Source: Sulfurospirillum sp. UCH001 (lineage in GTDB: Bacteria > Campylobacterota > Campylobacteria > Campylobacterales > Sulfurospirillaceae). From it: DNA of 64,000 nt. A program made the position numbers and the translations under genes. The stretch lies in the NCBI RefSeq assembly GCF_001548035.1, contig NZ_AP014723.1:620001-684000 (forward strand). The letters are read 5' to 3'. Under the pieces are notes generated by a model. It had not been told where the DNA came from, did no database searches, and saw only the letters and a program-made list of their open reading frames with translations. Positions 43,768 through 51,319 of the stretch are shown one piece after another; position 1 is the first letter of the stretch; every line of letters begins with the position of its first letter.

Positions 43768-44394
43768 ATGATCTACTTCTTCAGCGATAAAGCGTATGAG
43801 GGGGTAGTGCATCTCCCACTTTTTGAGATCGCATTTGATCCGATTTCCATTAATTTGGAGAAGTTTGATGCGATCATTTTTACTTCTAAAAATAGTGTCA
43901 AAGCACTTGAAAAAAGCAATGCCCTCTGGAAAGAAAAAGAGGCATATGCTATTGGTAAGGGCACAGCTTCATACATTAAGCATTGTGGCGGAAATCTTGT
44001 GTTTACCTGTCAAGAATCGTATGGCGATTCCTTTGCTACAACGCTTATTTCACTACTAGATGCAAAAAAAGTTTTTTTCCCTCGTGCCAAAGAAGTGGTT
44101 TCGCCTATTTTTGAGATATTACATGGTGCGAATATTGCTATTCAACAACACGTTGTGTATGAAACACATTGTAAACATTATCCTAGATCTTCTGCCCCTT
44201 CACAAGGCGCAAAATTAATCTTTACTTCTCCTTCAACAGTGCACTGTTTTTTAGAGAATTTTCCTTGGGATGAGAGTTATACGGCTATTGCTATTGGTAA
44301 AAAAACAGCTGCCGTTTTGCCTTCATCTGCAAAAATGATTATCTCTTCCATCCAAAGCATTGAGCACTGCATTACCTTGGCAAAAGCTCTTTAG
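43768..44394 (+). CDS. hemD: Uroporphyrinogen-III synthase
   Basis: A 208-residue HemD-like protein that cyclises hydroxymethylbilane in haem synthesis. HemD sequences diverge strongly; the visible signatures are DAIIFTSKNSVKAL in the first domain, FPRAKEV, the VYETHCKHY hinge and LIFTSPSTVHCFLENF with AIAIGKKTAAVL in the second. It follows guaA by three bases; the 6S RNA candidate and purD come next. This assignment rests on motif wording and length, and fits Campylobacter gene order. Confidence 0.82.
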   Translation: MIYFFSDKAYEGVVHLPLFEIAFDPISINLEKFDAIIFTSKNSVKALEKSNALWKEKEAYAIGKGTASYIKHCGGNLVFTCQESYGDSFATTLISLLDAKKVFFPRAKEVVSPIFEILHGANIAIQQHVVYETHCKHYPRSSAPSQGAKLIFTSPSTVHCFLENFPWDESYTAIAIGKKTAAVLPSSAKMIISSIQSIEHCITLAKAL

Positions 44395-44408
44395 AAGCTA
44401 AAATTATT

Positions 44409-44414
44409 TATAAT
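44409..44414 (+). promoter_or_regulatory. Predicted -10 element of the 6S RNA candidate
   Basis: TATAAT lies 15 bases after the hemD stop. The predicted start, about 44421, coincides with the beginning of the structured region described as 6S RNA. Nothing else in the gap explains a promoter so far from purD. Confidence 0.55.
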
Positions 44415-44420
44415 TAAGGA

Positions 44421-44640
44421 ACTTTAGTAATTTACCTTGCCTGGGTGAAGCGACAACCGTTTTCATGAGGGTCCAACAATTAGTATAAGGGAATTCGTAC
44501 ATTTTTGGTGTGTCTGTGGTTTTGTTTGAGCTTTGCAAAAAGTGAGAAATTGCAGCCTAAAGAAAAAGTCGCTTCCCAGAAGTTGGCTTATTAGGGCCGC
44601 TTCAATCTCGGAACGCTCACTTGGGTTTTATCGGTAAATA
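44421..44640 (+). ncRNA. ssrS: 6S RNA candidate upstream of purD
   Basis: This 220-base non-coding stretch folds on paper into the 6S layout. The closing stem pairs TTTACC (44431-44436) with GGTAAA (44633-44638) and GCCTGGGTGA-GCG (44439-44452, one bulged A) with CGCTCACTTGGGT (44614-44626). A large asymmetric bubble follows, then CCAAC (44473-44477) with GTTGG (44582-44586) and GGGAA (44489-44493) with TTCCC (44573-44577) closing the apical arm. A TATAAT sits at the right distance upstream. 6S RNA mimics an open promoter and binds the housekeeping RNA polymerase; I recall it near purD in Helicobacter. Ends are approximate. Confidence 0.7.
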
Positions 44641-44668
44641 AAAAATACGATTTTTTTGGAGAACGTTA

Positions 44669-45943
44669 ATGAAAGTCATGGTTGTTGGTAGTGGTGGTAG
44701 AGAGTATTCTATAGGTTTAGCACTGAAACGTGATCCGAATGTTACTGAACTTTTTTTCGCACCAGGCAATGGTGCAACTCCACAACTGGGACAAAATGTT
44801 ACTTTTAAAGACTATGAAGAATTAGCTGATTTTGCTAAAAAAAACAGTATAGAACTTACGGTTGTAGGACCTGAAATAGCTCTAGTTGAGGGCATTGTTG
44901 ATATTTTTAAGGCTAAAGGCTTAGTTATTTTTGGCGCCTCAAAAGCGGCTGCAAGGCTTGAAGGCTCAAAAATTTTCATGAAAAATTTTCTTTCCCGTTA
45001 TAACATTCCAACAGCAAAATTTATTGAAACGAGTGATGCTAAAAAAGCTAATGCTTTTATAGAAACTTTGGATTTACCTATCGTTGTGAAAGCAGATGGA
45101 TTATGTGCGGGCAAAGGTGTTATTATCGCACAAAGCAAAGAGGAAGCCAAAGAAGCTGTTGCCGATATGCTAAGTGGCAAAAGCTTTGGAGAAGCTGGTC
45201 TTGGCGTTGTCGTTGAAGAGTTCCTTGATGGATATGAACTCTCGTTATTTGTTGTTTGTGATGGTACTGATTATAAAATTCTTCCTGCTGCTCAAGATCA
45301 CAAACGTCTTAAAGATAATGATATTGGACCAAACACAGGTGGTATGGGAGCGTATGCTCCAACACCATTGATTGATGAAGAATTGTACAAAAAAGTTGAA
45401 GAACGTGTTGTAAAGCCTACTTTAGCAGGTATGCAAAAAGAGAATGCCCCATTTGAAGGCGTTTTATTTATTGGCTTGATGATTGTTAAAAATGAGCCAA
45501 TTGTTTTAGAATATAACGTTCGTTTTGGTGATCCAGAGTGTGAGATTTTGATGCCTCTTTTGAAGACACCAGCAAGCGAACTTTTCTATAAAGCTGCTAC
45601 AGGAAATCTAAAAAATTTAAAGATTGAATTTTTTGATAAGTATGCTATTGCTGTTGTTATGGCAAGCGAAAATTATCCGTATGGCAATTCAAAACCAGCA
45701 GAAATTATCATTGATAAGAATGTGCATGATGGTTTAGAAAATACACATATCTCGTATGCTGGTGTGAGCCTGGAAGATGGCAAGCTTTATGCAACAGGTG
45801 GACGTGTATTGCTGTGTGTAGGGGTTGGGGAAAGCATTAAAGAGGCACGCGATCGTGCGTATTTACTGTGTGGACAAGTCCATTTTGCGGGTAAACAATT
45901 TAGAAGTGATATTGCGTATCAGGCACTCAAACATGACAAATGA
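44669..45943 (+). CDS. purD: Phosphoribosylamine-glycine ligase
   Basis: A 424-residue GAR synthetase of the ATP-grasp superfamily (second step of purine synthesis). Motifs: [20 protein letters not shown] at the N-terminus, [16 protein letters not shown] (ATP-grasp), [25 protein letters not shown] and [26 protein letters not shown] precedes the ATG. The gene begins about 29 bases after the 6S candidate, whose transcript might read through into it. It overlaps the RDD gene by 11 bases. Confidence 0.97.
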
Positions 45944-51234: not shown

Positions 51235-51319
51235 GCGGACGTGGTGGAATGGTAGACACACTACCTTGAGGTGGTAGCGCACTACGTGTGTGGGGGTTCA
51301 AATCCCCCCGTCCGCACCA
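51235..51319 (+). tRNA. tRNA-Leu (anticodon GAG)
   Basis: An 85-base tRNA including an encoded CCA. The acceptor stem is GCGGACG / CGTCCGC, the D arm contains AATGGTAGACA, the anticodon arm is CTACC-TTGAGGT-GGTAG with anticodon GAG, a long class II variable arm follows (CGCACTACGTGTG), and the T arm is GGGGGTTCAAATCCCCC. The long variable arm and GAG anticodon identify tRNA-Leu reading CUC/CUU. Confidence 0.96.

Follow-up and report, generated by a model that had tools for sequence, protein, structure and literature searches.

What does the gap between hemD and purD encode in a Sulfurospirillum-like genome, and, if it is the 6S RNA that a preliminary description of the DNA proposed, which of its bases might exchange partners when the RNA lets go of RNA polymerase? 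The gap lies in the window, that is, the whole 64,000-nucleotide stretch of DNA that was analysed, whose PurD is 95% identical to the PurD of S. diekertiae JPD-1. The locus is laid out as follows:

43768-44394, + strand: hemD, the upstream neighbour (Pfam HEM4, 98.9 bits).
44409-44414, + strand: TATAAT, putative -10 box of the 6S promoter, from its letters and its position across 117 loci.
44421-44640, + strand: 6S RNA gene, ends approximate, from matches to model R1 and to RF01069.
44669-45943, + strand: purD, starting about 30 nt past the 6S RNA (Pfam GARS_N/A/C).

At gathering score, the window holds just one further Rfam match, a tRNA gene at 51235-51316.

The evidence supports the gap encoding 6S RNA, the known decoy that occupies RNA polymerase, and on this point the preliminary description is borne out by model matches, by covariation and by the orthologue in Campylobacter jejuni. 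The 6S identity is already published for the Campylobacterota lineage and is not new. The Rfam purD motif, RF01069, matches the window at 44497-44626 with 92.3 bits against a gathering threshold of 41, and has a single match in each of 143 of 150 genomes of the class. This model covers about 130 of the roughly 220 nt, taking in the 3′ bubble hairpin but not the 5′ side of either closing stem or bubble, and it is filed under the type Cis-reg. A full-length covariance model, R1, matches 44435-44642 with 175.5 bits, the window being also one of its training rows; it finds 197 of 200 genomes of the phylum with one copy each (E 0.01) and recovers six of the seven class genomes missed by RF01069. 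At that E-value G007, G117 and G173 are the phylum genomes without a match. Both G007 and G117 belong to family f6, and laxer filters give a weak match of 40.6 bits in G117 and none in G007; G173 was searched at E 0.01 only. Short second matches of 54 nt to the 6S model, at 26 and 21 bits, occur in family f5 (G006:C2:207876-207929 and G028:C1:274329-274382) and are possibly chance or a decayed copy.

The Rfam 6S model, RF00013, shares its overall architecture with the Sulfurospirillum RNA, yet it matches neither the window, nor the gap (E up to 10), nor the whole genome, nor any of the 150 class genomes. The covariance search with the 6S family by which the preliminary description had hoped to check its candidate is thus positive with RF01069 and with R1 and empty with RF00013, and the RNA is assigned to 6S by function and orthology, not through RF00013. 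In C. jejuni, the most transcribed non-coding RNA besides rRNA and tRNA sits upstream of purD; it is 185 nt long, has a 6S-like fold and a 13-nt antisense pRNA, and the purD motif is a truncated form of it, while the 6S RNA of Helicobacter pylori, for which two pRNAs are cited, lies at the same position (available excerpts of PMC3847290; cited alongside, with no specific fact drawn from their excerpts, PMC5447181, PMC3656092 and PMC2864571). These RNAs and the Sulfurospirillum RNA have in common the position next to purD, a similar size, the closing stem, the bubble and the terminal arm (for C. jejuni and H. pylori, the same excerpts of PMC3847290). They differ in that the -10 box of Sulfurospirillum lies about 17 nt further upstream and a helix, P0, has been added. 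One covariance model covers the phylum sample, and the orthology with C. jejuni and H. pylori rests on position and model. The H. pylori study is reportedly that of Sharma et al. 2010. Among the hallmarks of 6S RNA, a rod of about 200 nt, made up of closing stem, central bubble and apical arm, appears in the fold, in the covariation and in the full-length matches. As to a single copy per genome with its own transcript, there is one match in each of the 197 genomes, and a promoter-like box in 116 of 117 loci would fit such a transcript. Binding and release of the polymerase holoenzyme in Sulfurospirillum would then follow by analogy with the studied 6S RNAs.

The Rfam type and an older proposal for C. 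jejuni suggest a different reading, in which the RNA is a cis-regulatory element, a purine sensor, for purD. Besides the Cis-reg type itself, this reading can call on the neighbourhood: 112 of the 117 loci have purD on the same strand, starting within 400 nt of the RNA on its downstream side, at a median of 28.5 nt past the motif, and because only about 30 nt separate the RNA from the purD start in the window, purD there is probably read through the 6S RNA. Against it, in five of the 117 loci, which belong to families f2 and f5 (L055, L056, L077, L079 and L090), the RNA persists where the 700 nt of flanking sequence examined show no purD match, so that the RNA is not always tied to purD, and the C. 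jejuni RNA is an abundant transcript of 185 nt with an antisense pRNA (excerpts of PMC3847290). A promoter-like box close to the closing stem argues in the same direction. The box was scored as the nearest TAnnAT hexamer at most 40 nt upstream of the closing stem, and such a hexamer, itself scored without a chance control, is present in 116 of 117 loci; it is taken as a promoter because it clusters at 7 nt from the stem, a distance found exactly in 62 of 117 loci, with 112 of 117 between 1 and 14 nt. The distance in Sulfurospirillum is 24-25 nt (all four loci of the first set), which puts the box of core Sulfurospirillum about 17 nt upstream of where most other sampled genera have it, and transcription is expected to start near 44421. 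The single hit of a scan for consensus sigma-70 promoters, TTGGCA/TAAAAT at 44377-44404, is no more than chance would give (1 against 0.7 expected), and the same scan of the locus found no terminator. Elsewhere, terminator-like hairpins lie 3′ of the 6S RNA in 5 of the 117 loci by script (L033, L061, L063, L064 and L105), a further point against the purine sensor, and by eye in L132, L133 and L138; in loci with such a hairpin, this suggests that the 6S RNA is its own transcription unit. We consider a purine sensor very improbable.

RNAfold of 44421-44640 gives a closing stem, a bubble and an apical arm at -59.1 kcal/mol, a minimum free energy that is unremarkable by itself (z -1.34). The 117 loci were aligned, with 77 representatives forming alignment A1, and across these 77 relatives 82.1% of the cells of the full structure are paired, against 69.6% after shuffling (0 of 500 shuffles as high) and at most 48.0% with slid partners. 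The 6S-like architecture that had been read from the letters alone is therefore real by both RNAfold and covariation, and the compensatory changes that an alignment was expected to reveal are strong in the closing stem and apical arm. The main elements are:

44439-44452 (A44449 bulged) with 44614-44626, + strand: P1, the closing stem; 96.5% of cells paired, both-side changes in 9 of 13 pairs.
44453-44488, + strand: central bubble, 5′ strand; largely single-stranded in both the alifold consensus and the minimum-free-energy fold of the window.
44489-44493 (GGGAA) with 44573-44577 (UUCCC), + strand: P2, from covariation and permutation.
44499-44569, + strand: apical arm P3-P4, the core of RF01069, from the Rfam match and covariation.

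By analogy, the 5′ bubble strand would be the template for the pRNA. In fixed register, P2 is paired in 57.4% of cells, with double changes in all five pairs, and its own-partner duplexes beat swapped ones (0 of 5000 permutations as good). P3 is paired in 60% of cells in the register first drawn and in 83-84% one base over, the best register being 44501-44506/44562-44567. Beside the closing stem, pairings of 44452-44460 with 44606-44613, at 44-57% paired, make up 6 of the 40 best helices of a scan described below, and are perhaps lineage-specific extensions of the stem.

Core Sulfurospirillum genomes lengthen the rod further:

44430-44436 with 44633-44639, + strand: P0, an extra closing-stem helix of core Sulfurospirillum, from pair probability and relatives.

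The mean pair probability of P0 in the window RNA is 0.97. Its strands, with pairings read by eye, are ATTTACC/GGTAAAT in the window, CATGTAAA/TTTACATG in L121 and GTTTGC/GTAAAC in L119; some of the named relatives show matching changes on the two sides, others, for example L124 and L127, pair only weakly there, and over all genera P0 gives no covariation signal. In the window (44409-44436 and 44633-44639) and in L118-L122, the added leader can pair just before purD and so lengthen the closing stem.

The preliminary description went on to propose where the refolding takes place. In its switch, GAAGCGAC in the closing stem (44447-44454) re-pairs with GTCGCTTC (44568-44575), or GAAGCG within it re-pairs with CGCTTC (44598-44603), freeing the polymerase. 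The letters do stand at these positions, and the complementarity is exact in the window species, which is what the proposal has in its favour. When the region is shuffled 2000 times with dinucleotides preserved, however, a perfect complement of eight bases arises in 33.7% of the shuffles; the region also holds 11 six-base complements against 8.4 expected, and the longer pairing is missing from close relatives: GTCGCTTC occurs at 44568-44575 in none of the 13 that were named (L118-L122 and L124-L131), and A1 contains three further genomes of the genus, which read GTCAATTC, GTCGACTC and GTCGACTC there. Across A1, 53.2% of its cells are paired against 54.0% shuffled, and exchanging partners makes its duplexes no worse, since 3106 of 5000 permutations over 34 genera, and 3548 of 5000 in a second set, are as good as the native pairing. 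The six-base version does exceed column shuffles in A1, with 59.4% of cells paired against 54.3% (0 of 500) and 46 double-change cells against 24.2 (0 of 500), a control that does not remove relatedness. Permutations show nothing for it (2273 of 5000 as good over 34 genera, 2657 of 5000 in the second set), and since two of the six pairs fail in roughly two thirds of sequences (44449/44601 in 51 of 77, 44451/44599 in 49 of 71), we attribute the shuffle excess to relatedness. CGCTTC is kept in 9 of the 13 named relatives, not always with GAAGCG alongside, and its letters pair with GAAG at 44579-44582 in a predicted hairpin. Forcing the eight-base and six-base pairings costs 4.9 and 9.5 kcal/mol, respectively, relative to the consensus fold. 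We give this switch hardly any credence. The more general idea behind it, that competing pairings may drive refolding, finds support at other bases, and it was the bases named for it that were wrong.

Those other bases span the bubble:

44470-44474, + strand: GGUCC, 5′ half of a bubble-spanning helix, from covariation in 77 sequences.
44594-44598, + strand: GGGCC, a shared strand, serving as the 3′ side of both the bubble-spanning helix and hairpin P5, from covariation and permutations.
44585-44589, + strand: GGCUU, the 5′ side of hairpin P5, inside the 3′ bubble strand, from coevolution and pair probability.
44579-44582 with 44600-44603, + strand: outer pairs of P5, in the predicted hairpin.

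The GGUCC/GGGCC helix was first suggested by reading the alignment and was then tested alone. In A1, 91.9% of its cells are paired against 83.1% shuffled (0 of 500), slid versions reaching 18-65%, and there are 41 double-change cells against 9.4 ± 2.5 in shuffles (0 of 500). Two of the five measures applied show no excess, the pairs with both-side changes (4 against 3.3 shuffled, 178 of 500) and the further pair types (10 against 9.4, 195 of 500). With the 3′ register free within 3 nt, 71 of the 77 sequences form all five pairs and the remaining 6 form only four, so that at least four are formed in 77 of 77; with no shift allowed, 59 form five. Both-side changes are found at every position but the third, where U-G becomes U-A or C-G, and the compensatory types come from different genera: GGUUC/GAACC, AGUUC/GAACU, GAUCC/GGGUC, GAUUC/GAGUC, AGUCU/AGGCU, GGUCU/AGGCC and GGUCA/UGGCC.

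Relatedness can inflate such counts, and the helix was also judged by exchanging partners between lineages. With one sequence per genus (34), own-partner duplexes average -9.10 kcal/mol against -7.36 ± 0.30 for swapped ones, a gain of 1.7 kcal/mol that 0 of 5000 permutations equal. Reduced to one sequence for each of the 11 families, the test gives a median of 2.5% of permutations as good, so part of the signal is shared ancestry. In the second set, 70 of 70 loci form the five pairs and 15 of 5000 permutations are as good over 41 distinct rows; these loci are mostly close relatives of the first set, 54 of the 70 rows are of the commonest type, and their alignment was fitted to the first-set model. 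An unbiased scan of 16546 five-pair helices places this one 42nd by excess pairing (z 3.8), and the 40 rows listed above it comprise 31 registers of P1-P4, 6 helices beside the closing stem and 3 scattered ones. Another candidate across the bubble, CCAAC/GUUGG (44473-44477/44582-44586), was set aside as weak: its z is 1.9 in the scan and, when each genus contributes a single sequence, 2.0, although with all 117 rows 0 of 300 shuffles do as well. As far as the accessible text of the open-licence PMC literature goes, we found no description of a helix of the GGUCC/GGGCC type, which may already be drawn somewhere, for example in the published C. jejuni fold (a supplementary figure).

The 3′ half of this helix is also claimed by a local hairpin, P5. 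All 77 sequences are predicted to form a local hairpin in this strand of the bubble, and in the window RNA P5 has a mean pair probability of 0.90. With one sequence per genus, the own duplex of its arms averages -8.18 kcal/mol against -6.01 ± 0.30 when swapped (0 of 5000). Alignments in fixed register are less uniform: shuffles do as well in 14 of 500 cases by cells paired, in 2 of 500 by double changes and in 497 of 500 by pairs with both-side changes, and P5 is weak elsewhere in fixed alignments, at rank 888 in the scan and 26 of 300 with one sequence per genus. By reading, the partners of the shared strand track it in some lineages, genus g12 having GGGUC with GAUCC and GAC, and family f9 GGACC with GGUCC and GGUC. 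That GGGCC has two competing partners, GGCUU in the hairpin or GGUCC across the bubble, is well supported by these comparisons of sequence. In the window RNA, the hairpin is predicted to be the more stable of the two states, by 2.3 kcal/mol, and RNAfold has no consistent favourite over the 117 loci, giving the hairpin a probability above 0.5 in 46, the bubble-spanning helix in 37 and neither in 34.

Two pairings that share a strand need not alternate, and the bubble-spanning helix and the hairpin might instead coexist in a pseudoknot that gives the bubble its shape, without any switching. Family f8 (5 genera) points this way, since the hairpin stem there holds 0 or 1 of the five shared bases, and most of GAACC sits in the hairpin loop and pairs with GGUUC across the bubble; in the window, too, the outer GAAG/CUUC stem (44579-44582/44600-44603) could stay in place while GGGCC swaps partner. 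A strict either-or switch is consequently not universal, because the f8 stem spares the shared bases and both pairings could coexist. Most of the genera look otherwise: all five shared bases lie within the hairpin stem in 23 of 34 genera and at least three of them in 29 of 34, and where they do, the full hairpin and the full helix are mutually exclusive. As a general account, we regard the pseudoknot as unlikely.

How, then, would an exchange of partners serve a 6S RNA? In known systems, the polymerase transcribes the 5′ bubble strand into a pRNA, opens the closing helix and triggers a refolding, which yields a hairpin in the 3′ bubble strand in Escherichia coli and a collapse helix in Bacillus subtilis (excerpts of PMC8876501). 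In the scheme that we propose for the window, a promoter of sigma-70 type, with its -10 box at 44409-44414, would give a transcript of roughly 220 nt. Folded as closing stem, central bubble and apical arm, this RNA would mimic an open promoter and occupy the RNA polymerase holoenzyme, and it would be released when the enzyme makes a short product RNA on the bubble template. The bubble would be bistable, GGGCC swapping between the GGCUU hairpin and GGUCC across the bubble. It is very probable that a 6S RNA in this sense, with promoter, fold, polymerase occupancy and pRNA release, and with the bistable bubble as its refolding element, is the best joint explanation of the gap.

The direction of the exchange is harder to assign. 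The bubble-spanning helix could belong to the release state, as the collapse helix of B. subtilis 6S-1 does, the hairpin being the ground state and pRNA synthesis unwinding the closing stem so that GGUCC takes GGGCC. B. subtilis 6S-1 also combines a hairpin in the 3′ bubble strand with a helix from the distal 5′ bubble strand (PMC8876501, in excerpt), the collapse helix forms on pRNA synthesis there, as has been proposed for Aquifex aeolicus, and the 3′ bubble hairpin is already present in the free B. subtilis RNA (PMC8876501 and PMC4227106, in excerpt). The greater stability of the hairpin state in the window RNA, by the 2.3 kcal/mol given above, fits as well. The B. subtilis helix, however, takes as its partner the 3′ strand of the closing helix, whereas the Sulfurospirillum helix uses the hairpin's own 3′ arm, and it is because of this that hairpin and helix compete directly here. 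The pairing equivalent to that of B. subtilis, 44471-44476/44621-44626, is paired in 87.4% of cells against 85.8% shuffled (4 of 500), and its 5 double-change cells against 6.1 in shuffles, with 2390 of 5000 permutations as good, give no excess; a collapse helix with the 3′ strand of the closing stem, frequent as the pairing is, was set aside for want of excess covariation. The release-state reading would also leave the window RNA with a bubble of 36 nt on each strand before release. We consider it a possibility worth holding, at somewhat less than an even chance. The E. coli release hairpin, for its part, lies in the 3′ bubble strand as the hairpin does here, and is built on pRNA synthesis with the 3′ strand of the opened downstream helix, whereas both arms of P5 lie inside the bubble strand (excerpts of PMC8876501 for E. 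coli).

Alternatively, the bubble-spanning helix may frame the bubble that the polymerase sees, its exchange with the hairpin being coupled to loading or release. In a 6S RNA the central bubble has the size of a melted promoter. With the helix formed, the bubble here would measure 17 nt on the 5′ side and 15 nt on the 3′ side, both in the window and as medians of the 77 sequences, against 36 nt on each strand in the window when it is open. The bubble of E. coli 6S RNA is close to 17/15 nt in size, and for this reason we lean towards the helix as the frame of the polymerase-bound bubble and the hairpin as its alternative; as a model this is a guess, about evenly balanced, and the reverse assignment is nearly as likely. 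Whichever way it runs, the exchange may be the Campylobacterota's own way of setting the polymerase-bound and released forms, with coevolved strands and a helix that competes with the hairpin in most genera, distinct from both the E. coli hairpin and the B. subtilis collapse helix, a proposal that we put forward tentatively and place just short of even.

For this phylum the consequences are practical ones. Rfam release 15 still types the RNA as a cis-regulator of purD and its 6S model misses the sampled lineage, and for these reasons annotations that rely on Rfam models may lack a 6S gene here. The covarying bubble helix, in turn, corrects the bases that a first reading of the DNA would have had mutated, and offers a precise, mutable target for the release of RNA polymerase by 6S RNA outside E. 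coli and B. subtilis.
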